This document shows positions 10,262 to 62,500 of a stretch of 64,000 nt of DNA, in pieces. A program made the translations under genes and the position numbers. The notes beneath the pieces are model-generated. The model worked only from the letters and a program-made list of their open reading frames with translations. It made no database searches and was not told where the DNA came from. How positions within the stretch are numbered: position 1 is the first letter of the stretch; every line of letters starts with the position of its first letter. This stretch comes from Sipunculus nudus. Taxonomy: Eukaryota; Annelida; Sipuncula; Golfingiida; Sipunculidae. Location of the stretch: positions 94,789,624 through 94,853,623 of the forward strand of contig CM049308.1 in assembly GCA_026874595.1 (NCBI GenBank), written 5' to 3'.

Positions 10262-10795
10262 TGTGAAATAATGATGGGGGGGGAGACCCCCCATAAACCC
10301 CTCTGTATTAGGTAGAATGATTATAATTAATGATAAATAATAAGGAATAATTGGAGGGAGACCCCCTAAACCCCCCTGTATAAGGTAGAATGATAGGAAT
10401 GAATGATAAATAATGAGGAATAATTGGGGGGAGACCCCCAAACCCCCCTGTATTAGATAGAATGATAATAATGAATGAGAAATAAAGTGGAATAATGATG
10501 GGGGGAGACCCCCAAAACCCCCCTGTAATAGGATAAGAATGAATGATAAATAATGAGGAATAATGATAAGAATGAATGATAAATAATGAGGAATAATGAT
10601 GGAGGGAGACCCCACAACCCCCCCCCCCCCCCCCTGTAATAGGTAGAATGATAAGAATGAATGATAAATAATGAGGAATAATGATGGGGGGAGACCCCCC
10701 AAACCCCCCCTGTAATAGGTAGAATGGTAAGAATGAATGATAAATAATGAGGAATAATTGGGGGGGAGACCCCCCCCCCCCCCTTGTGGGAGGAA
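10262..10795. repeat. ~75-bp tandem repeat with G/C-run palindromes, about 7 copies
   Basis: Units read GAATGATAAATAATGAGGAA, TAATGATGGGGGGAGACCCC and CCCTGTAATAGGTAGAATGA with small indels. The GGGGGAGACCCCC core can form hairpins, and C-runs reach 17 (10618-10634). Long frames across it in two minus-strand registers are repeat artefacts. Confidence 0.85.
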
Positions 10796-35500: not shown

Positions 35501-38500
35501 CTCTGGTTATTCTTCATTTCAACAGATCTGTAATTCTCTGGTTATTCTTCGTCTCATCAGATCTGTAATTCTCTGGTTATGCTTCACCTCATCAGATCTG
35601 TAATTCTCTGGTTATTCTTCACCTCATCATATCTGTTATTCTCTGGTTATTCTTCATTTCAACAGATCTGTAATTCTCTGGTTATTCTTCGTCTCATTAG
35701 ATCTGTAATTCTCTGGTTATTCTTCATTTCAACAGATCTGTAATTCTCTGGTTATTCTTCACCTCATCAGATCTGTAATTCTCTGGTTATTCTTCATCTC
35801 ATCAGATCTGTTATTCTCTGGTTATTCTTCATTTCAACAGATCTGGAAATCTCTGGTTATTCTTCATCTCATCAGATCTGTAATTCTCTGGTTATTCTTC
35901 ATCTCATCAGATCTGTAATTCTCTGGTTATTCTTCATCTCATCAGATCTGTAATTCTCTGGTTATTCTTCACCTCATCATATCTGTTATTCTCTGGTTAT
36001 TCTTCATTTCAACAGATCTGTAATTCTCTCGTTATTCTTCACCTCATCATATCTGTTATTCTCTGGTTATTCTTCATTTCAACAGATCTGTAATTCTCTG
36101 GTTATTCTTCGTCTCATCAGATCTGTAATTCTCTGGTTATTCTTCATCTCATCATATCTGTAATTCTCTGGTTATTCTTCACCTCATCATATCTGTTATT
36201 CTCTGGTTATTCTTCATTTCAACAGATCTGTAATTCTCTGGTTATTCTTCACCTCATCAGATCTGTAATTCTCTGGTTATTCTTCGCCTCATCATATTTG
36301 TAATTCTCTTGTTATTCTTCACCCCATCAGATCTGTAATCCTCCCCATCATATTTAGAATTTTCCAGCTATTTCTTTGCAAAAATTCCCTTTCCCTGCAA
36401 GCAAGAATGGAGTTGTTTTTGTTTGTGAAGTATATATTGTGCATTATCTCATTTTTTCAGTGATGATAATGCAGCTATTGTGTGGACTGGTTATGGTAAG
36501 AGGACTCCCGTGCTCCTGTTCAGGGCGGAGAACTTAGTCAACAAACGCCATGATATCAAAGCCATAGGAGGTATGATGTGTATTTGTATGTGATTCCCCG
36601 CTTTGATTTGTATTGTCTTCATGTTAGATTAAGGGCTAATACAGCTGCTGAAAGGCCAGAATAAAGGCATGATCTAGGAAAATATGCTGTAATTCTATGA
36701 AACAGCCCTGCATATCAGCAGCCATAATTTAATAAGGTTATTAGCACAAATGGTAGTGGGCCCAAAATACACACAAGCTGGCAGCTGTATATATCCAGGA
36801 TAGTGTAGCTTGTTTATTTCATCCTGGGCTCAGCAGCATCTTTAGAGCAGGCTGATGCAGATGTACCAGGCTGATATGACCCATAAAACCAGGCTACAGT
36901 TGGCACTGGGCATTGTGCATCCTTGAATCTCTCAAAATCTGATAGCTTCATTACAGGGATCTGTATTTAGACTAATGGCAGTGAGAAATATGACATTATT
37001 TATCAGTGTTTAGAGCTGTCACAATACAAATGTGAACATTGCTGAAGAGATTTACCGTTAATGTTATTTAATTAACTTAGCAGTAGTGTTGAATTATAAG
37101 GCTGTAAACTGATGTAATCATTTGACTATTGCTGATGATTTCAGTACTCCTCAATGATTGTCAGTATATACTTGTTTTTTTTTTAAGAGCGATATCATTT
37201 GGCGTACAAGATGGTAAAGACAGAATGTAAACTTCTGCGTTCTATCTTGGGATCACATGGTTTTAGTGAGGTAAGTGATATGTATGTAAACTGCTGCAGT
37301 GTATCGTGGGATCACTTGACTTCAGTCAGATGAGAGATAAGAATGTAAACTACTGCAGGGAATTTTTTTAGATCCAATGACTTCAGTGAGTTAAGAGATA
37401 TGAAATTAAACTACTGCACTGTATTGTTGCATCACATAGCTTTAGTGAGATAAAATATATAGGTATAATATAGGTATAAACTGCTGTAGTGTATGATATT
37501 ACATGTCTGGTGACATCACTTTATGGTGTTGCCTATTGGGTTTGTGTTAGGTATGTTTTACCTGTAAGAGACAAAGTAAGTTTAGTGTTTTAGTGTACAT
37601 TAACATGACTTTTATCATTCAGGCACACCCTAACAGCCCTGATTTTAACCTGCTGTGGACTGGGTCTCACCTCAAGCCATACACATTGCGAGGTCTGCAG
37701 GAATTTCAAAAAGTCAATCATTTTCCAAGGTAAGTAACATCTGACATTGTTAATTTATCAAAACATGTTCAGAATCATTCTCAGCAAATACTTTCAGTTA
37801 CTTAGACCATGAGATATAAGCGTCCTGTTATAATTTGGTAATTAAAAAATTTTTTTTTTCTGTCATCAGGTCCTATGAAATTACTAGAAAGGATAGGTTG
37901 TTCAAAAATATTCAACGGATGCAACAGACCAAGGTTAGTGTTTATACTTACAATAATTTTAAAAAAAATCTATATAAAACAATGAAATGACTTGCTTTTT
38001 AGCGACAACTACTTATTGAAGTACTTTGTGATGACAAACATTTGAAGTGATCTTATTATTTATTGAAAAGATCATTTTAGTTCATTTATCAGATTGTTAG
38101 TTGTTCCTTTTGTACATATATGTATATATATATTTGTTTTATATTTCTATATAGCAGTATTTGTTATTTTTTATGCTTACTCTTACAAGAATTGACAGTT
38201 GTGTTAAATGTACAATTTTAAGTTTCAATACACACCACCTTCAAAGCTGTCTTTAACTTTATTAGGCATTATATTTTCTCTATTGTGCAAGTTCAGACCT
38301 CATATGTTAAGATTAATATATTACTTTGAATCAGTCTGGACTCTGATTTACCCATCAACCTTTGTTAATATTGGCCAGTCAGCCAGCATGTGGTAGCTTA
38401 CTTTCTTGGTTTCAGGGTTTCAAGCATTTTGACTTTGTACCACCAAGTTTTGTGATACCAGGAGAGTTCCAAGACTTCTGCAGTAAGTATAAACCTGGTC

Positions 38501-41500
38501 TTATGTCAGATTATTTCTATTATTTACATGTTATTTTAACATTAATGCTTATACTGACTATATTTTCAATTATCATAACAGCTGAGTAATCAGGGACACT
38601 GTATTGTGTATTTTTATCATACTTATGTATGTGATCTGACAATTGTACATGCATTTTATTATATTCAATTGCTGAACTGTGTGAAAAAATGATTTGAGAC
38701 TGCCTGCTTGTGATGATATTCCATTTCTTCAGTTAAGTCTGCTTAAGTACTTGTCTTTTAAGATTTAAGTAGTTAAATATGCAGTGATACCAAAACTGGT
38801 AAAGCAGTCACATGGCTCAGGACAGATAGATAGCATCTGACAGACTGTAGGCCAGGAGAAATCACAGACTAATAAATCTAGACAGATTTAGTTAATTCTT
38901 ATATTAATTAAGTTTTAATTCAGTAAAAAATTACTAGTAAAAAGCAAGAAATATACACATAGAGAATGTGTGGATGTGAAGACAGGTAGAACAGTTACCT
39001 AAATATTAGGAAAGAAAAGAAACCTGTGACTTCATGTCCTACCCAAGTTTGTGACTTTTTATCCGTGACTTTATTTTCTGTGACTTTTTTTCTTCCCCTC
39101 TTTGTTATTTCTGCTGTTTGCTGTATTGTATAGCAGAGTGATATATTGTTAAAATGCTGTTGAACTGACACACCTGCTGATTGTAAAACTAACTACATTT
39201 TATGTCATACAGCTAATTGTGATACAAAATTTAGTTTTATTGTTATAAATTCCATATATGATCTACAGCTGCTTACAGTGCCTGAAATCTTAAAACCTCA
39301 TTTGCTTGTGTGAACTTCTGTTGAATGTATATGTAAATTCAAAAGAAAATTTCTTGTTAGAAGCATTGTCAAGGTGAATTAGTGTAGTCAGGTAGTCATT
39401 GCAGTGTGGGCAGAACAATTTGATTAAAAAAAAAGTAGAAATGATGAAGCATTAATGACACTGATGTGGTCCATTAAACATTGTCTCGGGGTAATGACTT
39501 GTGTTAAATTAAGTGTTGCTCATTAGAAATATCTGCAAGATAGGGGTTATAATGACTTTTTTTTAGAATAGTTTAAATGCCACTCAATAATGCCTACTGG
39601 CACCCATAGGGCAAAAGGAGTTTTATGTTGCACACACTGCATCCCAATAATTATGTGTACCATATACCATAATAGTATCCATGCAGCCCCCACTGGTATA
39701 CGGGGCCAGTCTCACAAGATAATATACATGCAGAATCCCAGTCTATATCTAAAGCTGTGTTTACAAAGTCTGACCAATCAGCTTTATTTTAGTGTTATAA
39801 AGCTTGATATATGCAAATAAGTTTTCCTTTTTCAGCCTGGTTTTGTCATGATGGGTTTATCATTATCTTGTACATATTATACTGGGCCTACATTAAGAGG
39901 CCCTTGTTGAATGGACTTGTGTGCCTATGGACTTATATTACTCAAATTTCTGAATGGACGTGCTAACTCAGTTGTCTAAATATTCTACATCTGAGGGTGG
40001 TTTTGACTCTACTGTACATGGTTATATTTTACATTACTTTGTAGGTTTAATATTTTCTATGTTGTTCAATGTTCCAAAACTTTTGGAACAAATAAATCTT
40101 TATAGCCATTTGGGCCCATTCATTCATAAATAATTTTATAATTCATATGTGTTAGCATGAATGGTCAGTGTGTCATATATAATGATGTCCATCAGATATT
40201 AGGGGAAAGACATGTTTAGGATAGTTTTGTGCCAGTGGAATGGGGAAAATAAACATTAGAGAGTTCTGAAACATGTGATAGCTAATTAAAGTACTAATGT
40301 CTTGGGAATATTTATATAACCAAATCAGTATTTGTAAAATCCATTCATAGAGCAGTATTGTATACAAAAGTAATAGCAGGGACATATATCAGGGACAAAG
40401 CATTTGATATCAAATGTCAGCAAGTAAAACCTCTGAACTACCATGGAGCTGGTTTGTAAAAGTTTAGGCAGTTTCTCTGCAAAAACTTTGCAATCAGTAT
40501 CTTTCAGGGATCCTCTAGGAGATGCTATACAAGGCTCTGTTAGCTGGTACCCTTGCTGTGTATTTTAATGTACATTTAGTGAAATATAAACAGTAATGAG
40601 GCAATGTGTGGTAGCCAATGTAAACAGCATTCAGTCATAATTAATCATTGTCTGGTTGAGAGCTGCCCTGCATTAACGAGCTGGTGTAATTACAAGGGGA
40701 TGGTGGCTCTGCATGGTTTTATTTGCTGGTGATATTGATAGTGGTGTAAGCTGGCTTTGATCGTTCTGGTTTGCTTATTGATTTCTTGCTGGGGGTCGCT
40801 GTTGTGAGGCTGAACATAAAAAATGCAAAAAGGACACCAGTGAAATGTTGCTTTACCAGTGGGAAAGATGAAAGGCTGGAGGGAATAAACGAGAAGAGGT
40901 TCCTGTACATCCTGGTTGTAAACCAGCCTGTGCTGGGAACTGGCAGCATTTAAGCCAATTTTACTGCTGCATTTTGTATGTTTCCTGCTTGTATTCTCCC
41001 CATATATTCATTTTAATGTGTATACAAATACAGGTAACCTTGGTTACTCTACTCCAGTGCCAAGGTGACACAAACTTATTGCTTCAACTCTGTTTATTTA
41101 TTTGTTTATTTAACTAGCTCCACAGAATAACATTTGCATGTCTATTTAACATCTTTTACTGATGTTTGTAACATATAACCATTAAATACCCTGGTTTCAG
41201 CCTGCTATATCACATACTTCAGAGTATACATCAAGTTTATAATTTTAAGAATTGAAACTGGAAATACTCTGAAAAAATAAGTCCAAGGAATGCTTATTAC
41301 AACAATATTAACACAAATGGCATATTTCTAAATTCATTAAATTAAATGATAAAAAGTCTGTATTGCTTTTTGTATCTAATAAAACTCAGTAACTTACAAT
41401 TTAAACTTCATCTTCAGAGCCATACCTTTTCCTTAAACATGAGATGAACAAACATTCTGTAGTTTTTTAGCTCAGCTGACTGGCCAGAATGATGATCCAG

Positions 41501-44500
41501 AGAGTCAGATGGGACACAAATTGTATCCATTTGGCCTAGAATCTTCTTATGTGTTTTTAAAGGTGGTTTTTCATAAATGTCCTTGGAAACCTGAAACTAA
41601 GTAATGGTGAAAATATTCTGCAAGTGACTGGCCAAAAATATGATTATGAGCTCCCAGACAGTCAGCCAAGACACCAATTTGAAGTTAGGTCACTGTCTGT
41701 ATAATGTCTCTATAATGCTTATTACAAGAAGAAAACCTATTATTTAGCACCCAGGAATCACACAGGGCAGAAAATCTTAACTTTAGGATCTAGATATGTC
41801 TTTCTTAAAATAAAGTGAGGTCATTGTAATGTCTCTTTGGACATCCAAATAAGGTCACTGTGAGATATATTCTGTGAGCTGTGTGCAGAACATGATCTAG
41901 GTACCCTTTAAGTTAGATCGACAAAAAGCATAGCAGTTTGACATAAAATTTGCTAACTTAGGATTGGGGGAGTTCCTGTTGGACTGAAAATGTGCATATC
42001 CGTAGATCTTAGACTCCTCTATCTTTTACGTAAGACTGGTGGTGCCATCTGCTATCATTTTGCGTGGTGTCCATCTGTACATGTGCTTTTGGTGAAAATT
42101 GCTCATATCTCTGGAGTGGTTCAAGGTATTGGTCTTAAATTTGGCATGTGTATCCATCTTGGAAAATTTTCTTGAAAACCAGACAGGTGGCACAACCAAT
42201 CTTCCTGTTTCTGTAAAATAAATTAATGCTCTTTTCTCAAGAGAGATTCAACATATTTGGTGAAAAATATTGTTTCTCATGTTGATAGATGGAAGAAACC
42301 ATAGTCACTTGCTAAGTGTCAGTGTATGCTGCTGAAGATGAGGGGCCTCATCTTAAAGAGGGGTGGGGGGGGGGGGGGTGGGGGGATTTACTGTCTGGGG
42401 ATACTATCGCACCTGTGGTGTCAAGAAATATCTAGTTTATTTTTGTTTTTACCTGTTTTAGGTGCTTACCTCAAGGACAAAGGTCCATGGATTGTAAAAC
42501 CAATAGCCTCCTCCAGAGGGCGTGGCATATTCCTAGTCAATCATGTAAGTTTATAAAACAATAATGATCTGCCTACGAAGTTAATATGACTGCTAACCTA
42601 CAGTGATAAAGCCTTAAACTAAATGAATTAACTCATGGAAGTAGAACAGACCAAATCATCTGGTGAAAATTACCATATTTATCTGGATATATGTCATCAC
42701 TGTTTTGGTTGGCGTACATAAAATCATGCAAAATTGATAATTTGGAGTCATTAACTTTATTGCAATCTAAAAATCTAGAAAAGTATTTTCTTGTATAATC
42801 ATTTTCTTATGGGTTTCTCTGCCATGTTCAATTTTCTCTTGTATTTTTATCAGATGTGTTTCATTTTAACCCATAACTTTCATAATATTGTGATTAATAT
42901 GTATTTAGGTACATTGTGATATCAGTTGTGTTTCAGGTTTTGTCTTTTAACATAATTGTTCTCCTTGTCTTACAGCCAGAGCAAGTTCCACTGGATGACA
43001 CACTCATTATTTCACGATACCTCAACAATCCTCTGTTAGTTGATGGTAGGTTTTATACTCATTATTTAATGATACCTCAACAATCCTCTGTTAGTTGATG
43101 GTAGGTTTTATACTCATTATTTCACGATACCTCAACAATCCTCTGTTAGTTTATTGCAAGTTTTATACTCATTATTTCATGATACCTCAACAGTCATCTG
43201 TTAGTTGATGGTAGAATTTATACTCATTTTGTCACGATACCTGAACAATCCTCTTTTAGTTGATGGCAAATTTTATACTCATTATTTAATGATACCTCAA
43301 CAATCCTCTGTTAGTTGGTGGTAGGTTATATATTTATTATTTCACGATACCTCAACATTCCTCTTCACGATACCTGAACAATCCTCTGTAAGTTGATGGT
43401 AGGTTTTAAACTCAGTATCTCACAATACCTCAACAATCCTCTGTTAGTTGATGGTAGGTTTTATACTTATTATTTCATGATACCTCAACAATCTTCTGTT
43501 AGTTGATGGTAGGTTTTATACTTATTATTTCACAATGCATGAACAATTCTCTGTAAGTTGATGGTAGGTTTTGAACTCAGTATCTCACGATACCTCAACA
43601 ATCCTCTGTTAGTTGATGGTAGGTTTTATACTCATTATTTCACAATACCTGAACAGTCCTTTGACACTTGGATTATCTCAGACTTAGTACACACAGCAGC
43701 CTCTAGGCTGCTTAGGAATAACCTGTTATCTCTGGATGTATTGTCAACTGAAGAAACACCAGACAACTTGTATATACATCATATCAAAAGTTATTTACTG
43801 AACAGAAGATTTCTGTTGATTCATAGATCTACCCCTAGATGTCATTGTCTGTTAACCCAGGCACTGCCCAGATCAAGGTGTTTTATCCAGAGTCCATCTG
43901 TGTGTATGTCCTACAGAATTCAGTACAGAAGAAATTTAATACCTGGTAGACTTGAGTATTGATATATAATGTTCCCATGCTCACATGATGGTGTATGTAC
44001 TATGTTTCAGGCTTTAAGTTTGATTTGCGGCTGTACGTGGCAGTCACATCATATGACCCTGTCATCGTTTATCTTTATGAAGAAGGCCTCACCAGGTAGG
44101 TCTAGACTGAATTGTGATTTTTATTTCATATTGGAAACATGTAAATTCTTATTAAATTCTCATTATTGCAAATAGCAAATTTATCTTTATGATTGTGTTA
44201 AAAGCGAACTTACAGCTGTACAGAACTAATTTGTATGTTTGTTTGTTTGTATGTGTGTGTGGAGAGGGGGGGAATGAAACCTTAACTTGATGGTTTATCA
44301 GTAAAGTGATCTGGAGATGTGTAAAGTTTCCAGAAACTGCCTGATTATGTAATTTTTGTTAATTCAACTTTATCTTTTCTTTCTCCAGGTTTGCAACAGT
44401 CCAGTATGAGAAAGGAATCCGCCACATCCGCAACCAGTGCATGCACCTGACCAATTACAGTGTTAACAAGAAGAATTCTGACTATGTTAAGTAAGTCCTT

Positions 44501-47500
44501 ATGGCCTTATGCTAACACCAGTTACAGTGTTAACAAGAAGAATTATGACTATGTTAAATAAGTCCTTATGGCCTTATGCTAACACCAGTTACAGTGTTAA
44601 CAAGAAGAATTATGACTATGTTAAATAAGTCCTTATGGCCTTATGCTAACACCAGTTACAGTGTTAACAAGAAGAATTATGACTATGTTAAATAAGTCCT
44701 TATGTCCTTATGCTAACACCAGTTACAGTGTTAGCAAGAAGAATTATGACTATGTTAAATAAGTCCTTATGGCCTTATGCTAACACCAGTTACAGTGTTA
44801 ACAAGAAGAATTATGACTATGTTAAATAAGTCCTTATGGCCTTATGCTAACACCAGTTACAGTGTTAACAAGAAGAATTATGACTATGTTAAATAAGTCC
44901 TTATGGCCTTATGCTAACACCAGTTACAGTGTTAACAAGAAGAATTATGACTATGTTAAATAAGTCCTTATGGCCTTATGCTAACACCAGTTACAGTGTT
45001 AACAAGAAGAATTATGACTATGTTAAATCAGTTCTTATGGCCTTATGCTAACACCAGTTACAGCATTACCAAGAATAATGCGGACTATGTTAAGTAAGTC
45101 CTTATAAATGTCCTTATAGTAACACCAATTACAGTGTTAACAAGAATAATGCTGACTATGTAAGTCCTTATGTCCATATGGTAACATCAATGACAACATT
45201 AGAAAGAAAAATGCAATTATGTAAAGTGAGTCCTTATATCCTTATGATAACACCAATTACAGCATTAAATAGATTCAGATGAATGCTGACTATGTAAAAC
45301 TAGTCCTTCTAGCCTTAGAACTGTAACATCAGTTACAGTGACACAGTTACAAGAAAAAATACTGACTCAATTATGTAATCCCTTGTATCTTTATAAAAAC
45401 TTCATTTTAATATTAGCTTCTTGGTGTAGTTATAGAGATTTATTCAATGTGTTGTTTGAGTCATATCCATGTTCTGTCATAGGAACGATGATCCTGATGT
45501 TGAAGATTACGGCAACAAATGGTCACTCGGTGCTCTGCTCAGGTACCTCCGGTCTCAGGGCAAAGACACTACAGGTAAACCATAAAAAAATTTGTACAAA
45601 TTTTAGGCATAAACTCAGTATAAAATAGGTAAAAATAAATGAATCACAGCTACAGGGATCTGTATGCCCTTGGTCAGTTGGCTGCCAGTGTAATTACATA
45701 TTGTCTGTGTAAAATAGGATGTTCAATATAGAATTTTCTCATGTAATCTATAGCTGTGTTACTTCAGGGATTGAACAGTGACCTACAATACTTCTTGGTT
45801 CTGTATGAAATTATGTGATGCCTAGAGCTGACTGATCCCCCTTTTCTTGTGTGTTACTGGATCAGTTCTGATATTGTTTTTATCATGTTTACGATCATGG
45901 CTAAAACACAAACTTCAGTGTCCAAGTGAATCAGACAGCTAACCTTGTGCGTCCTCTGACCAGGATGCTGCTGATAAATCAAATCACATTTAAGTATTGA
46001 ATGGTACATCAGGTCTGAAGATAAACAATAATAAATAATATTTATGAAATATTTTGTAATCAGTAAATGCAAAACTGTATGTTGTAATTTATAGAAGAGA
46101 CACTGTTCTTTGTAGTTGAAAAATGAACAAAAGTTAACTCTGCCAGAGTGTGTGCCCCTCAGATGTACATGTCTGTGTGACCCTCAGCTGTACAGGTCTG
46201 TGTGACCCTCAGCTGTACAGGTCTGTGTGCCCCTCAGCTGTACAGGTCTATCTGCCCCTCAGTTGTACATGTCTGTGTGCCCCTCAGCTGTACATGTCTG
46301 TGTGTCCCTCAGTTGTACATGTCTGTGTGCCCCTCAGCTGTACATGTCTGTGTGCCCCTCAGCTGTACATGTCTGTGTGTCCCTCAGCTGTACATGTCTG
46401 TGTGCCCCTCCGCTGTACATGTCTGTGTGCCCCTCAGTTGTACATGTCTGTGTGCCCCTCAGCTGTACATGTCTGTGTGTCCCTCAGCTGTACATGTCTG
46501 TGTGCCCCTCCGCTGTACATGTCTGTGTGCCCCTCAGCTGTACATGTCTGTGTGTCCCTCAGCTGTACATGTCTGTGTGCCCCTCCGCTGTACATGTCTG
46601 TGTGCCCCTCAGCTGTACATGTCTGTGTGTCCCTCAGCTGTACATGTCTGTGTGCCCCTCAGCTGTACATGTCTGTGTGTCCCTCAGTTGTACATGTCTG
46701 TGTGCCCCTCAGCTGTACATGTCTGTGTGTCCCTCAGCTGTACATGTCTGTGTGCCCCTCCGCTGTACATGTCTGTGTGCCCCTCCGCTGTACATGTCTG
46801 TGTGCCCCTCAGCTGTACATGTCTGTGTGCCCCTCAGCTGTACATGTCTGTGTGCCCCTCAGCTGTACATGTCTGTGTCCCCCTCAGCTGTACATGTCTG
46901 TGTGCCCCTCAGCTGTACATGTCTGTGTGCCCCTCCGCTGTACATGTCTGTGTGCCCCTCCGCTGTACATGTCTGTGTGCCCCTCCGCTGTACATGTCTG
47001 TGTGCCCCTCCGCTGTACATGTCTGTGTGCCCCTCAGCTGTACATGTCTGTGTGCCCCTCAGCTGTACATGTCTGTGTGTCCCTCAGCTGTACATGTCTG
47101 TGTCCCCCTCAGCTGTACATGTCTGTGTGCCCCTCCGCTGTACATGTCTGTGTGCCCCTCAGCTGTACATGTCTGTGTGCCCCTCAGCTGTACATGTCTG
47201 TGTGTCCCTCAGCTGTACATGTCTGTGTCCCCCTCAGCTGTACATGTCTGTGTGCCCCTCCGCTGTACATGTCTGTGTGCCCCTCAGCTGTACATGTCTG
47301 TTTTAAGTGTTGATCACAAGATTTGTAGATTTCTGTTGTTTGCCTGTGGCAGCTCTTATGATGAGGATTGAAGATGTCATCATTAAAACCCTACTGTCAG
47401 CTGAACTTCCCATCGCCACAGCATGCAAGATGTTCATGCCATTCAGAGGAAATTGCTTTGGTGGGTGGTCTGCTATCATAGCCCTGAAATTAATTATTAC

Positions 47501-50500
47501 ATTAAACTATTACCATTACCCCAGCACTTCATATCAGTTACTTATCTGTAATTATAGCCACTGAGTTAATTATTAAATTTAAACTACAACTACACATGTC
47601 AATTTCATGTCAGGCTCCACTTTTAACAACTATTTGTGTATTCCCAAGTTTGATCAGGAGTTCTCTCTTTTACTGGGATGTCAGTGAATTGTTTCAATGA
47701 TTTGTCTGAAATGTCCCCCAGAATGTATTTTAGTCAGTGAACCTTGAACAGTTCTATAGAAAATACATAAGACTGTGTGTATTCAGGAGTGTGTTCTAAC
47801 CATGAGGCTATTACAGTGACATCTAAGATACATTTGTTTTATTTCTTCAACAATTCTTGGTGTATCTCACTATACTAAGTACAACTTATTTTCACAATAT
47901 TATGTTTTTGATGTTCTTGTTGGCTCTGAACTTATCTTACAGAGTTGTTTGTTTTATTTTATTTTACAGAACTGTATGTTTTTGATGTTCTTGTTGGCTC
48001 TGAACTTATCTTACAGAGTTGTTTGTTTTATTTTATTTTACAGAACTGTATGGTTTTGATGTTCTTGTTGATGACAACATGCGACCCTGGGTACTGGAAG
48101 TGAACCTGTCTCCGTCCCTGGCCTGGTCAGTTTACAGAGGGTTTCTACAATCATTTGGTTTTATGCTATATGGTAGCAACCTTTATCCTTTATTATCAGA
48201 CTCATAATCATAATCCTGTTGTGGCTTACTGCTTCATTCAGTAGTGTGTCAGTACCTTGATACCTGTCTGCTGAGACTAACCCCCTGTCTGCTGAGACTA
48301 ACCCCCAGTCTGCTGAGACTAACCCCGTGTCTGCTGAGACTAACCCCGTGTCTGCTGAGACTAACCCCCTGTCTGCTGAGACTAACCCAGTGTCTGCTGA
48401 GACTAACCCTGTGTCTGCTGAGACTAACCCCCTGTTTGCTGAGACTAACCCCCTGTCTGCTGAGACTAACCCCCTGTCTGCTGAGACTAACCCCCTGTCT
48501 GCTGAGTCTAACCACCTGTCTGCTGAGACTAACCCCCTGTCTGCTGAGACTAACCCCCAGTCTGCTGAGACTAACCCCGTGTCTGCTGAGACTAACCCCG
48601 TGTCTGCTGAGACTAACCCCCTGTCTGCTGAGACTAACCCAGTGTCTGCTGAGACTAACCCTGTGTCTGCTGAGACTAACCCCCTGTTTGCTGAGACTAA
48701 CCCCCTGTCTGCTGAGACTAACCCCCTGTCTGCTGAGACTAACCCCCTGTCTGCTGAGTCTAACCACCTGTCTGCTGAGACTAACCCCCTGTCTGCTGAG
48801 ACTAACCCCCTGTCTGCTGAGACTAACCCCCTGTCTGCTGAGTCTAACCCCCTGTCTGCTGAGACTAACCCCCTGTCTGCTGAGACTAACCCCCTGCTTC
48901 TGATACAGTAATACCTGTTGCAATGGTCATTTGGTCTCGTACATCAGGTAAGTGGAATAAACAGAAGCTTCTGTTTTGACATTTACCAGATCAGCCTTGT
49001 AAGTCCTGTTATTAACCTGTTAACTTTATAATATTAAATTATTTTTTTATTGTTTAACTGGAGACCTCATGAACTTAAGAAATATTTGACCTGGGTGCTT
49101 CTCTCTTTGCAGCGACTCCCCACTGGACCTGAAGATCAAATCAAACATGATGGCTGACCTCTTCAGTGTGGCAGGTGAGATCAAGATCATCCATGTCACA
49201 TGATTTGATTTTTTATACATCAGACAGGCACATTTGGCAGTTTTTATATGACCAGTAGAAAGGTGCAAATTAAGATAGATATGTACAAATCCACCATGTC
49301 AGAATAACCCTTAATAGTAAGTCTCAAATATTAAGGATTTATCTTCTTCTGTTGAGGATTAATCTTCTTCTGTTGAGGATTAATCTTCTTCTGTTGAGGA
49401 TTAATCTTCTTATATTCAGGATTTATCTTCTTTCGTTCAGGATTTGTCTTCTTATATTCAGAATTTATCTCCTCATTCAGGATTTATTTTCTTATATTCA
49501 TGTTTTATCTTCTTTTATTCAGGATTTATCTTCAATTATTCAGGATTTATCTTCTTAAATTCAGGATTTATCTTTTCATATTCAGGATTTATCTTCTCAT
49601 ATTCAGGATTTATCATCTTGTATATAGGATTTATCTTCTTTTATTTAGAATTTATCTTCTTTTATTCAGGATTTATCTTCTCAACCAGGATTTATCTTCT
49701 TGTATTCAGGATTTATCTTCTCGTTTTCAGGATTAATCATCTTGTATTTAGGATTTATCTTCTTTAATTCAGGATTTATCTTCTCAACCAGGATTTTTCT
49801 TTTCATATTCAGGATTTATCTTCTCGTTTTCAGGATTAATCATCTCATATTTAGGATTTATTTTCTTTTATTCAGGATTTATCTTCTTGTATTTAGGATT
49901 TATCTTCTTGTATTCAGGATTTATCTTCTTGTATTCAGGATTTATCTTCTCGTTTTCAGGATTAATCATCTCGTATTTAGGATTTAACTTCTTGTATTCA
50001 GGATTTATCTTCTCGTTTTCAGGATTAATCATCTCATATTTAGGATTTATCTTATTGTATTCAGGATTTATCTTCTCGTTTTCAGGATTAATCATCTCGT
50101 ATTTAGGATTTATCTTCTTGTATTCAGGATTTATCTTCTCGTTTTCAAGATTAATCATCTCGTATTTAGGATTTATCTTCTATATTCAGGATTTATCTTC
50201 TCGTTTTCAGGATTAATCATCTCGTATTTAGGATTTATTTTCTTTTATTCAGGATTTATCTTCTTGTATTCAGGATTTATCTTCTTGTATTCAGGATTTA
50301 TCTTCTCGTTTTCAAGATTAATCATCTCGTATTTAGGAATTATCTTCTTGTATTCAGGATTTATCTTCTCGTTTTCAGGATTAATCATCTCGTATTTAGG
50401 ATTTATCTTCTTGTATTCAGGATTTATCTTCTCGTTTTCAGGATTAATCATCTCGTATTTAGGATTTATTTTCTTTTATTCAGGATTTATCTTCTTGTAT

Positions 50501-53500
50501 TCAGGATTTATCTTCTTGTTTTCAGGATTTATCTTCTCGTTTTCAGGATTAATCATCTCGTATTTAGGATTTTATCTTCTTGTATTCAGGATTTATCTTC
50601 TCGTTTTCAGGATTAATCATCTCGTATTTAGGATTTATCTTCTTGTATTCAGGATTTATCTTCTCGTTTTCAGGATTAATCACTTCGTATTTAGGATTTA
50701 TTTTCTTTTATTCAGGATTTATCTTCTCGTTTTCAGGATTTATCATCTCGTATTTAGGATTTATCTTCTTGTATTCAGGATTTATCTTCTCGTTTTCAGG
50801 ATTAATCATCTTGTATTTAGGATTTATTTTCTTTTATTCAGGATTTATCTTCTCGTTTTCAGGATTTATCATCTCGTATTTAGGATTTATCTTCTTGTAT
50901 TCAGGATTTATCTTCTCGTTTTCAGGATTAATCATCTCGTATTTAGGATTTATCTTCTTGTATTCAGGATTTATCTGCCAGGATCCCATGATGAGGAAGA
51001 TCCCTCAGGCAAGGATCACTGGCAACAGATCTAAGGTAAGATGAGGATCACCATGGCGACACCATGGTATCTGTTGAATATGATGTAGAGACCTTGCATT
51101 TTGTTTATTCACCCTGTAATGCACCCTGCACTTTGCTTGCAGTATCTCAGTGTCCACACATTTAATTGATAGTGTGCAGCTGGACCTACACTTTCTCATG
51201 TTGATGTTCATGTTACTTTCATGTGATAAACCTTCTGTACAATTTAATGTGAACTATTTATATAATGTTTATTGTGAATACCTGAAGTATAGTCAATGTT
51301 TAATTAGTGTTTCTTATAATTACAAAACTTGTCTTCTAAAAACTTAAATGTGTCTTCATTAGAAGTTTTCATTTCACTGACATCAGAGATGCAGATCAAG
51401 AAGTTATAGTAGCAAATAAATAAAAACACTTTAATGAGCTGGCCTTAAGTCCTGTTAAAACATTAGAAGTGCGCCTTCACAGTTTATGAAACTGTTAGAA
51501 ATTAAACCTGAAAGCAAAACATTAGTTCCCAGATTAAGTAAGTCATCCAGATTCAACAAGATTAAATCAGTTATAAAAGTTTCAGATCTTTACAGTATTT
51601 GTTTTGCAAAAATAATACCCCTTTAAAAGTAGCTTACATTTCTTCAAGAACCTGGGGACAAGACTTTTTTGTGGAAGAACATTTTCTGTCTTTATAAAAC
51701 TGATCATTTACAAATACTACAGTAAACTATCTGCAAGGTCCAGATGACAAGGAAGGGATCAAGTCTTATGAATTGTAACAGCTGTGAGGGCATCGAGAGT
51801 AACCCTTGTGGGAAGATGGTACACAGATGCATCCTGGGATAGTGTTTCCTGACCCTTTTAGAACTCACAACCTCAGACACCGTATTTTATCTGAATGACC
51901 TCACGCACTGTGCATGTTGATGTAAATACAATAGTTTCTTATTGAAATTGTTTAATTGACCATAATGCATCTCTGCATGTCATTGCAAGGCTCCCATAAA
52001 GCACCGGTACTACAGTTGGTCTTCACGCTTTCACTATCGTGTGCATGCATGCTACTTCACATAGAAATCATTTTCTTGTAGTCTCCTGTTTGTAGCACCT
52101 GATGTTGTAGCACTGTGTGACCTTTTGACCTTGAAGTGCTTTTGATTTTGACTTGCAGTCAGCTCTTGGTAGACCTAAGTCTTCATATGTACCACGGGTA
52201 AGTCTCAGCTTGGCCACCAGATGGCCTTCATTTTCTCAGCAGCTTGCTGCCATCACAGGCAGGTGGCGCCAGCAGGCTGCCTCCTTTATTTCTTGCATCA
52301 TCTTGTGTCCTGTACTTTAACTATAATTTGAATACTTTCCTGGTGTTGTAGCTGTTTAGTTGGGTAGATCTACCTCATAATTTCCCTGAGTTATAAGTCA
52401 GTAGGAGAACCAGCAGTAGTCCTGGATTAATCACATCTGTTTGTTTTGTTCACAGTGACCATACGTTCAAGGTTTAAATACTATTATCCCTGGTTCATGG
52501 ATGTATCATAGATCCAGTCACATTTTATGTATAATTTTGAAATAGTACTTATTTAATACTAGCACGGTTTAACTTTGGCTTGTCAAATTGTCTTTTGGTT
52601 TTCAGTATTTTATCTTCAGTATCAGTTTAACTTGAGGTGCACAAATATTGCATTATTCGAGTACTTAGAATACTGTGTCATCTGAGAGGAAACCATTGTA
52701 TTCTCTCCCATATTTCATTCTCATTTTGACATGAAATTATAAATTTCATCATTAAAAATTTAGAAATTCAGTTTTTAATTGAGAAAGGAACATGGTAGAA
52801 AAAAAACAACAAGAAAGAAACATGGATGAGAAAAATGTTTCGGATATTGTAATGGTTTTGATATTAACCTACTAAAATATACCTTTTAACTGGTGCTTTA
52901 ATAATGCTTTGTTTTTAATGAATAATGGATTGATTTGAATGAGGGGGCTTGCACAATTGAACTTACCTTGTGTAATACTGGCTCAGGGAGAAGCTTGGTG
53001 AAGTCTAACTGATGAGCCACATGTTGATGTAGTGAGCTGAGACATTACACAATGACCCTACTGGTTTTAGGTAGCCCGATAGCCATCAGGTTTTTGTACC
53101 ATACATAAAGTTCCAAGATACCATGGTCTGTGGCATGGAGAGCATGTAATAATATCTGTAGTAGTGTTATGACAGTTAGGATTTGGAGTATTCTGATTCA
53201 GCACGCTGTTATCATTTTCCAGTTAATGATTTGTTTTAGAATGCTAATATCAGTAAAGTACATAGAATGGCCATCTAATTCAAGTGGCATGTGTTTAATT
53301 AAAGTTGCAGGTAATTAACCATGTATAAGAAGGATTAACAGGATGTCACATGATGGGTAACATCAGATTCAGATTTCACAGCATAGTGACTGACTTTGTG
53401 AATGTTGACTGACAGCCTGTCACATGAAGGGTAACATCAGATTCAGATTTCACAGTATAGTGACTGACCTTGTGAATGTTGACTGACAGCCTGTCACATG

Positions 53501-56500
53501 ATGGATAACATCAGATTCAGATTTCACAGTATAGTGACTGACGTTGTGAATGTTGACTGACATCTTGTCACATGATGGATAACATCAGATTCAGATTTCA
53601 CAGTATAGTGACTGACTTTGTGAATGTTGACTGACAGACTGTCACATGATGGATAACATCAGATTCAGATTTCACAGTAGAGTGACTGACTTTGTGAATG
53701 TTGACTGACATCCTGTCACATGATGGATAACATCAGATTCAGATTTTGCAGTATAGTGACTGACTTTGTGAATGTTGACTGACAGCCTGTCACATGATGG
53801 GTAACATCAGATTCAGATTTCACAGTATAGTGACTGACTTTGTGAAAGTTGACTGACATCTTGTCACATGATGGATAACATCAAATTAAGATTTCACAGT
53901 ATAGTGACTGACTTTGTGAATGTTGACTGACAGCCTGTCACATGATGGGTAACATTAGATTCAGATTTCACAGTATAGTGACTGACTGTGAATGTTGACT
54001 GACAGCCTGTCACATGATGGGTAACATCAGATTCAGATTTCACAGTATAGTGACTGACTTTGTGAATGTTGACTGACATCCTGTCACGTGATGGATAACA
54101 TCAGATTCAGATTTCACAGTATAGTGACTGACTTTGTGAATGTTGACTGACATCCTGTCACATGATGGATAACATCAGATTAAGATTTCACAGTAGAGTG
54201 ACTGACTTTGTGAATATTGACTGACAGCCTGTCAAATGATGGATAACACCAGATTCAGATTTCACAGTAGAGTGACTGACTTTGTGAATGTTGACTGACA
54301 GCCTGTCACATGATGGATAACATCAGATTCAGATTTCACAGTAGAGTGACTGACTTTGTGAATGTTGACTGTCCTCCTGTCACATGATGGAGAACATGAG
54401 CCTGGCCAGTTATTCTGACAAGCCAATTTTTGAATTGTTGTTGTAGTTGTTATGCTTCAGGTGCCCTGGCGCCAGGTTATGGCAGTACTGTATGGGTGTT
54501 TCTATCCCTTATCACATTGGCTCTGTGACATTTAAAACATCCACAAGGAGACATCTAAGGCTGAGATATTGACATAACCTGATGTGGTTAAGGCAGGACG
54601 GATTAAAGTGAAGATGAAGCCAGTCTATTAGAATGTATTGAACACACAAATGGCTGGTGTTCACCTGTCCTCAGTGTACATTGAGAGAACTGGGTACCAG
54701 TCTACTGCTGATTTTTTACAAATATGAATCATAAAATTATGAACATTACTATATTCAAGGTCAGCTTGACTCTGGGAACCTTATGTATTTTATTGAACTT
54801 GCTAATACTATTCGGTATATGTTAACAAGAGACTTTGCAGCCTGTAAAAGCTTTTACCAGAGCATTAAAAGAGATGGCATAATTAGAAAAACAATTCATT
54901 GTGATTTAATATAGTATGGATCTGTTACAGACTAATTCATTATTTGCTGTGATTTGATGTAATTTCATCATTTTGTTACAGACTAATATATTATTTGCTG
55001 TGATTTGATATTGTGTCGTCATTCTGTTACAGAATAATGTATTATTTGCTATGATTTGATAAAGTATCATTATTCTGCTACTGACTAATGTTTTATTTGC
55101 TGCTTTAATTCAAACAGACAGGGCTTGTCCCTTTTTCTAAGGTTTGTTGCGGACTGTGTGTTGTGGCTCATTGACATTCCTAACATAAAGACAAGATGAT
55201 TGTGTTATTAACAAAGTGTTGTGTTTCTGTTGTCACCCATCTTCCAACATCATTTTTATGATCTTCAGTTATTTATATCATAAACATGATGTAATGGGAG
55301 AATTCCTGGCAGTTATTTATATCATAAACATGATGCAGTGGGAGAATTCCTGGCAGAAGCACATTTATTTTTTTCAAAATTTGTTTTTGTTTATTTCAGT
55401 TCATTGACATGTTGGTCACATTTTTGATAGAAAATATTTCTCACTTGAAATGAGTTGGTGACAGCAGTGATCTTTGTGTACATTTTTGATCACATTAATT
55501 GATTTTAATTTCTGAGCATTTATGGAGTACTGTGACATGCTAAGTATGGTCAGCACATCTTAATACTTATGCTAATTTTCATATCAAGGATTCAAACCCT
55601 ATCACTTTATTTAATGTATTTTTGAGTGGTTGTTATTTTGGTGAATATAAATAAAAAGTGTATACTGAGCATATTTGACTCACAAGTTTTTATAAACTGC
55701 TTCATAACAATTAATGGTCAGAATAAACAAACAAATACCAAGCTCTACTATTGCATGACAGGGGAAAGGAATTTGTAATGTCTACTGTTTTCATGAGTTC
55801 ATAATTTTATACTAAAGATCACTGTCATGTTAAGTAACATTGAATTACAGGAAGAAAACACTAAGACATATAATTAAAAGTTTTATTGTGTGAAATTTTT
55901 TTTTGTAATGGAGCAAATTGACAATATCGTTAGGTATTGATGTTGCAGTCTCTCCACTGTATTCAGCTGGTGTGTGTTTGGTGATTTGATGTTGTATTGT
56001 GATTCAGAAAACCCGGCCTCAGTCAGCGGGGGGCAGCAGCCTGAGCGGAGTCGGGAAGGGCAAGATGAGCGGACTGACGTCGGAGGAGATAAAGATACTC
56101 AGGAGGAGCAGAGAGGAATACAGTCGGCGCGGAGGCTGGGTCCGGATATTCCCATCACCAGACTCCTGGGAGCTGTATGGGTAAGTTAAGTCATCATAGA
56201 GGCTTGGTCTGGATATTCCCATCACTGGACTGCTGGGAACTGTATTGGTAAGTAGTCATCATAGAGGCTGGGTCCACATATTCCCGTCACTGGACTCCTG
56301 GGAGCTGTACGGGTAAGTACAGTTGTCATAGAGGCTGGGTCTGAATATTCCCGTCACTGGACTGCTGGGAACTGTATGGGTAAGTACAGTCGTCATAGAG
56401 GCTGGGTCCGGATATTCCCGTCACTGGACTGCTGGGAACTGTATGGGTAAGTACAGTCGTCATAGAGGCTGGGTCCGGATATTCCCGTCACTGGACTGCT

Positions 56501-59500
56501 GGGAACTGTATGGGTAAGTACAGTTGTCATAGAGGCTGGGTCCGGATATTCCCGTCACTGGACTGCTGGGAGCTGTATGGGTAAGTACAGCCATCATAGA
56601 GGCTGGGTCTGAATATTCCCGTCACTGGACTGCTGGGAGCTGTATGGGTAAGTACAGTCGTCATAGAGGCTAGGTCTGAATATTCCCGTCACTGGACTGC
56701 TGGGAACTGAATGGGTAAGTACAGCCATCATAGAGGCTGGGTCCGGATATTCCCGTCACTGGACTGCTGGGAGCTGTATGGGTAAGTACAGCCATCATAG
56801 AGGCTGGGTCCGGATATTCCCGTCACTGGACTGCTGGGAACTGTATGGGTAAGTACAGCCATCATAGAGGCTGGGTCTGAATATTCCTGTCACTTGACTG
56901 CTGGGAGCTGTATGGGTAAGTACAGACATCATAGAGGCTGGGTCCGGATATTCCCGTCACTGGACTGCTGGGAACTGTATGGGTAAGTACAGCCATCATA
57001 GAGGCTGGGTCCGGATATTCCCGTCACTGGACTGCTGGGAACTGTATGGGTAAGTACAGCCATCATAGAGGCTGGGTCCGGATATTCCCGTCACTGGACT
57101 GCTGGGAGCTGTATGGGTAAATACAGCCATCATAGAGGCTAGGTCCGGATATTCCCGTCACTGGACTCCTGGGAACTGTATGGGTAAGTAGTCATCATAG
57201 AGGCAGGGTCCGGATATTCCCGTCACTGGACTGCTGGGAACTGTATGGGTAAGTACAGCCATCATAGAGGCTGGGTCTGAATATTCCCGTCACTTGACTG
57301 CTGGGAGCTGTATGGGTAAGTACAGCCATCATAGAGGCTGGGTCCGGATATTCCCGTCACTGGACTGCTGGGAACTGTATGGGTAAGTACAGTCGTTATA
57401 GAGGCTGGGTCCGGATATTCCCGTCACTGGACTGCTGGGAACTGTATGGGTAAGTACAGTCGTCATAGAGGCTGGGTCCGGATATTCCCGTCACTGGACT
57501 GCTGGGAGCTGTATGGGTAAGTACAGCCATCATAGAGGCTGGGTCTGAATATTCCCGTCACTGGACTGCTGGGAACTGTATGGGTAAGTACAGTCGTCAT
57601 AGAGGCTGGGTCTGAATATTCCCGTCACTGGACTGCTGGGAGCTGTATGGTTAAGTACAGCCATCATAGAGGCTGGGTCTGAATATTCCCGTCACTGGAC
57701 TGCTGGGAACTGTATGGGTAAGTACAGCCATCATAGAGGCTGGGTCCGGATATTCCCGTCACTGGACTGCTGGGAACTGTATGGGTAAGTACAGTCGTCA
57801 TAGAGGCTGGGTCTGAATATTCCCGTCACTGGACTGCTGGGAGCTGTATGGGTAAGTACAGTCGTCATAGAGGCTGGGTCCGGATATTCCCGTCACTGGA
57901 CTCCTGGGAGCTGTATGGGTAAGTACAGCCATCATAGAGGCTGGGTCTGAAATTTCCCGTCACTGGACTGCTGGGAGCTGTATGGGTAAGTACAGTCGTC
58001 ATAGAGGCTGGGTCCGGATATTCCCGTCACTGGACTGCTGTGAGCTGTATGGGTAAGTACAGCCATCATAGAGGCTGGGTCTGAATATTCCCGTCACTGG
58101 ACTCCTGGGAGCTGTATGGGTAAGTACAGCCATCATAGAGGCTGGGTCTGAATATTCCCGTCACTGGACTCCTGGTAGCTGTATGGGTAAGTACAGCCAT
58201 CATAGAGGCTGGGTCTGAATATTCCCGTCACTGGACTGCTGGGAGCTGTATGGGTAAGTACAGTCGTCATAGAGACTGGGTCCGGATATTCCCGTCACTG
58301 GACTGCTGGGAGCTGTATGGGTAAGTACAGCCATCATAGAGGCTGGGTCTGAATATTCCCGTCACTGGACTCCTGGGAACTGTATGGGTAAGTACAGCCA
58401 TCATAGAGGCTGGGTCTGAATATTCCCGTCACTGGACTGCTGGGAGCTGTATGGGTAAGTAGCCATCATAGAGGCAGGGTCCGGATATTCCCGTCACTGG
58501 ACTGCTGGGAACTGTATGGGTAAGTACAGCCATCATAGAGGCTGGGTCTGAATATTCCCATCACTGGACTGCTGGGAACTGTATGGGTAAGTACAGCCAT
58601 CATAGAGGCTGGGTCTGAATATTCCCGTCACTGGACTGCTGGGAGCTGTATGGGTAAGTACAGCCATCATAGAGGCTGGGTCTGAATATTCCCGTCACTG
58701 GACTGCTGGGAACTGTATGGGTAAGTAGTCATCATAGAGGCTGGGTCTGAATATTCCCGTCACTGGACTCCTGGGAGCTGTATGGGTAAGTACAGCCATC
58801 ATAGAGGCTGGGTCCGGATATTCCCGTCACTGGACTCCTGGGAACTGTATGGGTAAGTAGTCATCATAGAGGCAGGGTCCGGATATTCCCGTCACTGGAC
58901 TGCTGGGAACTGTATGGGTAAGTACAGCCATCATAGAGGCTGGGTCTGAATATTCCCGTCACTGGACTGCTGGGAACTGTATGGGTAAGTACAGTCGTCA
59001 TAGAGGCTGGGTCCGGATATTCCCGTCACTGGACTGCTGGGAACTGTATGGGTAAGTACAGCCATCATAGAGGCTGGGTCTGAATATTCCCGTCACTGGA
59101 CTGCTGGGAACTGTATGGGTAAGTACAGCCATCATAGAGGCTGGGTCTGAATATTCCCGTCACTGGACTCCTGGGAACTGTATGGGTAAGTAGTCATCAT
59201 AGAGGCAGGGTCCGGATATTCCCGTCACTGGACTGCTGGGAGCTGTATGGGTAAGTACAGCCATCATAGAGGCTGGGTCTGAATATTCCCGTCACTGGAC
59301 TCCTGGGAACTGTATGGGTAAGTAGTCATCATAGAGGCAGGGTCCGGATATTCCCGTCACTGGACTGCTGGGAGCTGTATGGGTAAGTACAGCCATCATA
59401 GAGGCTGGGTCCGGATGTTCCCATCGCAGGACTCAGGGGAGCTGTTCTAAATGTTGTTTCTTGTAGCTATGTTATATTGTGTTCAGTGTATTTATATATG

Positions 59501-62500
59501 CTGATGTTTTTAAATATTTTTGATAATCAGAAGATTGACAATGGAAAGTGATTAAGGACAAGTTGTTGAGTAATAAATCTAGTCAAACCAGTGAATAAGA
59601 ATAACCCAGTCACACCAGGCTTTTAAATGGAAAATTCTGTTTTGTGTACTATGCATCCTGTCTGTTTATTGCCTCTTGCATAATTACTCTATACAAATCT
59701 GATTATTGTTTGGAAAATAAATCAACATTATCATAATTTCACTTCTCTTTTCATGCCTATTGACAGGTTTATTGTGTCAGGCTAGTTTTTTTGTCATGTT
59801 TGTGTTGAATTCAGGTAACCTGGTTAATGTCAAAATTTGTGCATTAAAAGAGAAATAAATTGAGCTTCACAATAAAGAGGAATCTTGTTCCATCTTGAGT
59901 TTGAAGATGTATTGATGTAGACTTTGGTTTACTTGCAGGTCTTACCTCCAGTTTACCACCACCCACAACTGGATGTTGTTCCAGCAGCTTTTCCCTGAAA
60001 GGTCAGTCGGCGAGATTTGTTGTAAAGTTTTATCCACGAGTTATGGATTATTTCTCCTGGTCTGTGCATAGTAAACCTGACATCCAGTAGGTTTACCAAA
60101 TTATTTGTGACTTGTATTGCATGGTTACCTTGGGCCTGAATTGATGCCGCCACCAGCTTGTCATGGATCCATTCTTTAAATTAAAATCATGTTTTTGGTG
60201 TTGTCTTGTACAAGATTCAGTGTTATAATTGGACAATACTGGATGATAATTCACACTAATGTGATAATGATAAAAATGAACTTTACCTGATGCTGTTTGA
60301 GTGTATCAGCAAGAGTCTTACGGATACAATTTGTGTCTCATATACAATAACACTGTCCTGATTTACTTGTGTATCTGTTGCTAGGGCCAAGAATTTGTCT
60401 CAGAAGCCGTCATCAGCCAGTTTCTCATCCAGCCTAAACAGGACAAAGTAAGCAAATGATAATCACAGTTATGTTGTTAATGAGTATGTTGTTAAGTGAT
60501 AGCTGTTACAGGGTGACAGTGTTACAGGTACTATAACAGCAGTAAAGTGACATTGTTAAAAGTAACAATCCTTGATTCAGTTACTGTGTAACAGGAACAA
60601 GTGTACAGTAACAGAGGGACAGCAGTGCTGCAGTAACATTAGTACTGTAACAGCATTATAAGAATAGAGTACGGTATCAACATGACATTATCAACTGGAG
60701 TACAGTAAATGTGGTACAATGAAAATGGTAAGGTAACAGTAGTACAGTAACAGTTATAGCAGGGATACAGTAAAAAGGGTCCAGTAGCGGGGTTGCAGTA
60801 ACTGTGGTGCTGTACCAGGAATACAGTCATAAGTAAAGTCACAGGGGTACAGTGCCATCATAAAGTAACAGCAGTACAGTAATAACATGTATTTTCCAGG
60901 TCCATACATCTCCACAGCACTGCCTACCCTCAGCTCCATGTCTCCTCAGAGGTACGTATCACGTTATACATACTCTGTCAAAAGTTATGAATAAAAGTAA
61001 AAATGTCTATCAAGTAATTGTTGCTGGTAATAGATTGCAGGAGTTCTCTTACCAGTTAACCAGGCAACTTTGCTAGTATTATGTTAAATCATTTTATGCA
61101 GCCTATGATAATTTTTCCTGTTATGTTAGTTTGATATATTTACTACCGTAAAAGTTGTTGCAGAAGTCGCGAATTGTACTAGGAAATCGAATTCTAAAAA
61201 CTAGAATTTTCAAGCAAAGACGGGGTGCGACTTGTAATACGTACTTATCCCGTTTCTGTCAGCTTTCCCGGTACATGGAACGACATCAGTTGAGCGATAA
61301 TCGGCAAAACCTTTAACCAGTGTTTTGTGAAACGTCTTTCCCCAATAATTTACACTTTTAACCATCTCTTATTAAAACCTGCCTTATATTTTGTGAACTG
61401 ACGGGATTTTCATTTTATTAACATTAAATGCAAATTATAAATTTGATCAGTTCAAGGCCTACCTGTTCTGACAAGTCGCAATTCAAGTGACACTTCCTCA
61501 CCTGCATTACCGTTATATCATAAGGCAATTTGACGCTGCCAGTCTGCCACTCTGATGTACATTTTCTTTCCGTTTAATCTTTATGGGTATGCATGTCATT
61601 ATGAAAAACTAGAGGTTTCATATCCATTTATACATGTAAAGTTGCGTCACATTCAAGCTTGATCCACTACAGACACGTCATGAATTCTTTTGCCTGCCCG
61701 GTTGATCGCTAAATACCTGCTGACCTTTGAAGCCGTGTAGCGGAAGTTCAAGCCCCGGGTCACCCGTGCAATGACCTTTACATCCCCAGGACAACTAAGC
61801 CTTCCGTGACTGATATCCACAGTTATAAACTCCCATATTAAGAATCAAATAAATATATATATAAATATAAATATAAACTTATTTATTTTACATGGATTGT
61901 ACAAATAGTTATTATAACTAATCGAGGCACTCTCCATGGCTCCGGTGATGGCATTCGGTAGTCTGCAGGTCACTGTCACCATCTCATGGTTTTCAAGCGT
62001 ATTGGATAACAATGTTATAACGTTTCACGTGAGCTGCATCTATACAATTTGTTTCGTGTGTTACCCGGCCGAGTCTTTTTCAGAACGATCGTTTGTCCGG
62101 TCAACAATATGGCGGCACGCATGCATTACGGTCAATCGTGTGTTGACGTATTCAATATATTTTTTAATGAAGACACTTAAATCAATACAATGAAATAACA
62201 AACACCATACAGGTATATATTTTATTTACTTAAAATGCCACATACGTAACGGGAACCCGCATCGTTTTGTGTCATGACGGATCTGGTTCAACACGGCTGA
62301 GTTAGCCATACATTCAAGCCGTTTGAATATAATCACTGATAATGATGGAAATTGGGGTTTCCAGATGTTATCAAAGGAAAAAATCATTAGTATCAGTAAA
62401 TATTATACCCGTAAATTCAATTATGTTTGAGTTACATTAACTGACCGGTCAATAAAGCGTTCATTATCCCCTTGTTGACTAACATATTTCCGTGATTTCA

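Follow-up and report, generated by a model that had tools for sequence, protein, structure and literature searches.

How did six exon edges of a single gene come to be repeated, together with their splice sites, as tandem arrays in the adjoining introns? The question is raised by a stretch of 64,000 bases (the window, G000:C3:94789624-94853623) of a 1.43 Gb assembly, which carries a gene of the TTL family on the plus strand at 36461..60001 with 18 mapped exons; positions below are those of the window unless a contig or piece is named. Six tandem arrays with units lying across exon edges, four at donors and two at acceptors, were found in this gene by Tandem Repeats Finder (TRF), with units of 21-74 bases and 2.3-78.8 copies. 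In the features that can be tested here they fit the arrays named mirage minisatellites in amphioxus, and they were probably born of almost randomly placed tandem duplications, tolerated via the outermost working splice site.

Going downstream along the plus strand, the arrays are found at the donor of exon 2 (37223..37460; 59-base unit, 4.0 copies, 48 exonic bases in the array), the donor of exon 7 (43002..43660; 55-base unit, ~12 copies, 44 exonic bases), the donor of exon 9 (44450..45161; 67-base unit, 10.6 copies, 41 exonic bases, with extra diverged copies reaching ~45340), the acceptor of exon 12 (47901..48070; 74-base unit, 2.3 copies, 27 exonic bases), the acceptor of exon 14 (49329..50976; 21-base unit, 78.8 copies, 9 exonic bases) and the donor of exon 17 (56132..59433; 67-base unit, 49.5 copies, 49 exonic bases). 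All six edge-spanning arrays reported in the earlier note, whose exon numbers are one higher than ours up to exon 14 and the same at exon 17, were thus recovered by TRF. The exon edges are the source of the units, the coding side being conserved TTL protein. The copy identity given by TRF is 72% for exon 2, 82% for exon 14, 86% for exon 7, 92% for exon 17, 95% for exon 9 and 98% for exon 12. Six different exons, different unit sequences and differing copy identities make these six separate events, in accordance with the suggestion in the same note that exon edges had acted as seeds at least six times independently. Divergence of the outer copies is visible in part: in the array of exon 9 it shows at the end remote from the exon (0.84, 0.82), in that of exon 17 at the end next to the exon (0.88-0.90), and in that of exon 7 it is not clear. 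A DNA search with the end of exon 17 and its first units returned 21 matches, all at its own locus, which indicates a local source. A dispersed or mobile source of this unit was rejected on the same 21 of 21 matches, in a search that skips very common words and is therefore no proof.

The exons of the gene lie on the plus strand at 36461-36570, 37188-37270, 37623-37729 and 37870-37933 (exons 1-4), 38416-38482, 42462-42544, 42976-43045 and 44011-44095 (exons 5-8), 44389-44490, 45483-45574, 47353-47460 and 48044-48125 (exons 9-12), 49113-49174, 50968-51035 and 52159-52197 (exons 13-15), 55118-55141 (exon 16) and 56008-56180 and 59939-60001 (exons 17-18). All 18 have GT-AG edges and form, when spliced, a single open frame; exon 16 is optional, a possible 24-base exon (TGLVPFSK) that is in frame. 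The first exon or exons upstream of 36461 and those beyond 60001 lie outside this map. The translated gene matches the Pfam model TTL at 6e-91, and the best relatives of its product among solved structures (PDB) are TTLL6 and TTLL7. We presume it to be TTLL5, a protein whose features it fits, and no search made here tells it apart from other TTLL genes; it is called the TTLL5-like gene below.

How far have the copies retained the splice sites? At the donor arrays, GT is kept in none of the three copies after exon 2, in 8 of the 10 copies that cover the site after exon 7, in 5 of 14 after exon 9 and in 48 of 49 after exon 17, where 47 copies retain GTAAGT. Seven copies after exon 9 carry ATAAGT, as if a single mutated copy had been amplified later. 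At the acceptor arrays, AG is kept in two of the three pieces found before exon 12 and in 74 of 77 copies before exon 14. The decoy sites anticipated in the earlier note are indeed numerous: the GT sites that equal or exceed the true donor in score number 46 after exon 17, six after exon 7, two after exon 9 and none after exon 2, and 18 of the 68 decoy acceptors (YYAG-G) before exon 14 are in frame with an open path into the exon. If the true donor is skipped, an in-frame stop follows after 2 bases at exons 9 and 17, after 51 at exon 7 and after 61 at exon 2, and use of the in-frame decoys of exon 14 would insert hydrophobic 7-residue units. The splicing of exon 17 should select the first of ~47 like donors, and donor decoys would be tolerated because the outermost copy is transcribed first and gives the shortest exon. 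The tolerance at the acceptor of exon 14 is less easily explained, as there the true site is transcribed last. Retention of the decoys for a function, either as tunable poison donors at exons 9 and 17 or as in-frame hydrophobic insertions before exon 14, would agree with the nearly complete conservation of the donor hexamer after exon 17 and of AG before exon 14 and with the 18 open in-frame acceptors. It is nevertheless very unlikely, for donors have been lost in the arrays of exons 2 and 9, a loss which fits decay or homogenised variants and not one constraint.

The earlier note had held the repeated conversion of splice junctions into minisatellites to be undescribed. This was not borne out, as arrays across exon edges were reported in amphioxus and named mirages, in Adh3 and the globins BflGb6 and BflGb9 (PMC3087553), with further cases in PGBD5 and TnC (troponin C) (PMC3902484), and a reading of the present arrays as a new phenomenon was accordingly rejected. 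As in those reports, a minisatellite array is present, its unit lies across the boundary of a real exon, both 5′ and 3′ boundaries are affected, and AG or GT is retained in many of the copies, though not in all; the last feature is found overall and not in the exon 2 array alone. In the accessible text of the amphioxus reports, reverse transcription PCR suggested that splicing is undisturbed (PMC3087553), length instability is reported, and copy numbers, where given, are 3 to 6, against six mirages in one gene and up to ~50-79 copies here. A human minisatellite, that of IFI6 (6-16, G1P3), provides multiple splice donors (PMC4526556). It resembles the present donor arrays in giving several donors after one exon and differs, as far as the accessible text goes, in being a single gene whose downstream repeat units serve as donors and make isoforms. 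In intron gain by tandem duplication, the AGGT model, a potato RdRp case crosses an intron-exon boundary (PMC4974935); a boundary-crossing tandem duplication copies splice signals there as well, but a new intron is made, whereas the arrays described here sit in existing mapped introns, which grow. Genes in human segmental duplications carry internal minisatellites, some at exon-intron boundaries, which alter gene structure (PMC2812944), and these, in the text at hand, are not arrays grown into old introns as here. In a shallow and therefore weak literature search, neither a case of six mirages in one gene nor a genome-wide mirage rate was found.

The present arrays are known from an assembly, and their repeats could in principle have been created or inflated during its construction. 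Such an artefact is most improbable: the copies differ among themselves, all matches of the exon 17 unit fell at its own locus, and similar structures occur at many places of the genome (see below).

The course of events that we favour would begin with a short tandem duplication having its ends on both sides of an exon edge, by which the last or first bases of the exon, the splice site and some intron would be copied into the intron. Since the outermost copy is still attached to the remainder of the exon, it would go on serving as the splice site, and the duplication would be nearly neutral. The inner copies could then expand into an array by slippage or unequal exchange. In a genome that makes minisatellites at a high rate and places them nearly at random, some would be expected to cross exon edges.

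Is six more than chance would place there? Random seeding in the array-collapsed introns of the gene gives an expectation of 1.27 junction arrays against the six seen with strict TRF settings (Poisson P 0.002), and the same model with looser settings gives 2.19 (P 0.024). A TRF-free probe was also used, in which 30 exonic and 10 intronic edge bases are looked for as a copy within the next 300 intronic bases. By this measure 6 of 36 edges of the gene are copied, compared with 33 of 2,474 intronic windows (1.3%) at which an array begins (P 8e-6); windows within 300 bases of an exon were excluded, and the control therefore lacks near-exon intron. These P values are all post hoc, as the gene was picked because it is striking. 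The gene is also rich in arrays away from its edges. The strict TRF total is 14, comprising the six junction arrays, five sizeable off-exon arrays and three small ones, or 14 per 13.1 kb of collapsed intron against 62 per 219.9 kb in the genome sample described next, and the excess in this gene is in part due to a local hotspot of minisatellite formation.

For the sample, 122 further pieces of the genome were taken around 207 exons found by Pfam models, namely 83 of the dynein model DHC_N2, 28 TTL, 42 kinesin, 20 myosin and 34 kinase exons. Among the places sampled, 17 scaffolds longer than 60 Mb are represented. The exon edges were placed by a simple splice-site score, and individual edges may be off. 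For DHC_N2, 83 of 84 matches were used, one distant exon being omitted; for TTL, 28 of 32, omitting three in the window and one long exon at C6:48224419. The kinesin exons are 42 of 126 matches (even ranks 2 to 80 and two neighbours inside the pieces) and the myosin exons 20 of 75 (even ranks from 2 up to 40, but 11, 13 and 15 in place of 10, 12 and 14). Six neighbours, three of kinesin and three of myosin, did not lie completely within the pieces and were dropped. The kinase exons are 34 of 138 matches, those below 300 bases with short open frames, taken in list order with a few passed over. Each set was picked before its arrays were inspected, though the first result was already known when the kinase exons were added. 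An all-against-all peptide search for exons was dropped, as many of its 335 segments were apparently repeated non-gene DNA; any exons that it might have added are consequently counted as intron.

The same structure was found at other loci, in contrast to the rarity assumed in the earlier note. By reading of the sequence, junction arrays are present at the acceptors in pieces L004, L053 and L055 and at the donors in L005, L012 and L081, with more diverged ones at the donors in L025 and L021; alignment adds junction copies in L016 (two donors), L006 (short), L033 and L093. The genes concerned, outside the TTLL5-like one, encode dynein, kinesin, myosin, kinase and TTL proteins. In L115 the copy found by alignment consists of exon sequence only, starting from the first exonic bases. 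The strict TRF count excludes arrays that adjoin an edge and do not cross it (L010, L013, L015 and L020), and the probe settings with a longer intronic part include L020 and also L075. The TTL exon in L021 (~5430-5560) apparently has a GC donor (CAG|GCAAGT), and the intron that follows holds several diverged copies of the exon end. Four successive myosin exons at G000:C2:44849337-44852248 represent nearly the same stretch of the profile (~109-153), as in mutually exclusive exons.

Are exon edges in this sample copied more often than intronic positions? With the probe, 12 of the 412 edges with sufficient flank (of 414) were copied nearby (2.9%), compared with 682 of 33,857 intronic windows that start an array (2.0%). 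Over 18 settings, which vary the probe shape (three), the threshold (two) and the complexity filter (three), the ratio runs from 1.13 to 1.89 with P from 0.023 to 0.43, below 0.05 in two of the 18, and a stricter choice of control windows (251 of 11,438) gave P 0.20. Strict TRF settings yielded 62 arrays over 414 edges, with 7 junction arrays against 4.53 expected (P 0.17); a TRF score of at least 150 gave 7 against 3.89 (P 0.10), and looser settings 12 against 8.11 (P 0.12). Before the kinase set was added (88 loci, 346 edges), the counts were 6 against 3.83 (P 0.19) and, with looser TRF, 11 against 6.86 (P 0.09). The position of the edge within the unit fits a uniform distribution in Kolmogorov–Smirnov tests of little power (P 0.69 for 13 arrays, 0.32 for the six of the gene and 0.31 for the seven of the sample) and is not visibly concentrated. 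A preference for junctions in the genome sample is therefore at most weak.

Pairs of a donor 9-mer, CAGGTAAGT or AAGGTAAGT, 30-60 bases apart were also counted against the reversed motifs, among the matches listed. A few long arrays account for most of the raw pairs (605 against 240 and 518 against 342), and separate places were therefore counted by eye, giving 20 against 9 for CAGGTAAGT in C1, C2 and C3 up to 47.3 Mb and 13 against 7 for AAGGTAAGT in C1, C2 and C3 up to 16.4 Mb, together 33 against 16 (P 0.043). Among the 13 AAGGTAAGT places, four (C1:55617399, C1:58942402, C2:5340726 and C2:19896931) seem to belong to a single dispersed family; with that family counted once the result is 30 against 16 (P 0.088), and with clear arrays only, judged by eye, 20 against 9 (P 0.078). 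The single-motif exposure used is 15,332 for CAGGTAAGT and 12,946 for its reverse and was assumed to be the same for the second motif; the reversed control is not matched for dinucleotides. A 53-base array at G000:C2:37218027-37223264 with dozens of CAGGTAAGT copies may be another large donor mirage.

Several points weigh against nearly random placement. The gene differs from the sample, its 6 copied edges in 36 comparing with 12 in 412 (Fisher 0.0016), and at least six of 36 edges at the sample rate has P 0.0006. Every point estimate of the preference exceeds one, motif pairs included, and none is strong. Moreover, purifying selection should lower exon edges below introns, so that the true mutational excess could exceed the observed one. 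Finally, the data basis is the DNA of one assembly and one haplotype. Part of this would be expected if, as suggested in the earlier note, a local mechanism favoured splice junctions, with the present gene as its hotspot; R-loops at donors, breaks linked to transcription or pausing of the polymerase are examples of what could act in this way. Such a mechanism would agree with the high rate in the gene against both its introns and the sample, with the probe ratios above one in all 18 settings, with the full motif-pair count and with the excess of donors over acceptors in gene and sample (13 to 5, two-sided P 0.096). We nevertheless consider it unlikely, since the sample excess has P above 0.05 in 16 of the 18 settings and is no clearer by TRF, the motif excess weakens once the dispersed family is counted once, the gene was selected as striking and edge positions are not concentrated in the units. 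The mechanism was thus not established. The expectation that its absence would appear as a lack of enrichment in other genes comes close to what the sample gives, and a weak preference or a real hotspot in this gene is still compatible with the data. A milder form is likewise rather unlikely: junctions would be mildly preferred birthplaces of minisatellites (~1.5- to 2-fold), the TTLL5-like gene would be a hotspot with six of its 36 edges converted independently, and mirages would be a general, measurable class of intron growth and not an amphioxus curiosity.

In the amphioxus literature, as far as accessible, mirages were recorded for single genes in turn; here they have been found six times in one gene and at ~3% of sampled edges. 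A muscle myosin exon of this genome is most similar, among solved structures, to squid and scallop myosin, with vertebrate myosin almost equally close, and the molluscan haemocyanin model Haemocyan_bet_s gave no match in a search run with no positive control. Should the animal lie outside the cephalochordates, mirages are more widespread than the accessible literature says. At such a rate a single genome should hold numerous natural experiments on site choice, in which the spliceosome selects one of up to ~46 neighbours of equal score, and on any tie between minisatellite birth and junctions. A yardstick is also provided, for a junction-directed mechanism must beat the intronic rate of array birth, here ~2% per position.

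The five sizeable off-exon arrays of the gene, all found by TRF in introns on the plus strand, lie at 46149..47301 (25-base unit), 48263..48903 (21-base unit), 53344..54397 (74-base unit), 54900..55102 (51-base unit) and 55266..55356 (44-base unit, 2.1 copies). The 25-base array has 46 copies and is open in all three forward frames. The 51-base array precedes the optional exon 16, and its units bear an acceptor-like TTACAG. Just upstream of the first mapped exon, very long arrays are found at 23435-27763 (60 bases × 72) and 34465-36343 (35 bases × 54), a minisatellite field to which the arrays of the gene may belong. Between them, at 28572-32922, is a 33-base array of 131 copies in which the minus strand is open for 1,095 codons (28553-31840), probably just a consequence of a unit length divisible by three. 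Farther upstream, at 10278-10775, an array of 73-76-base units contains long runs of C and G.

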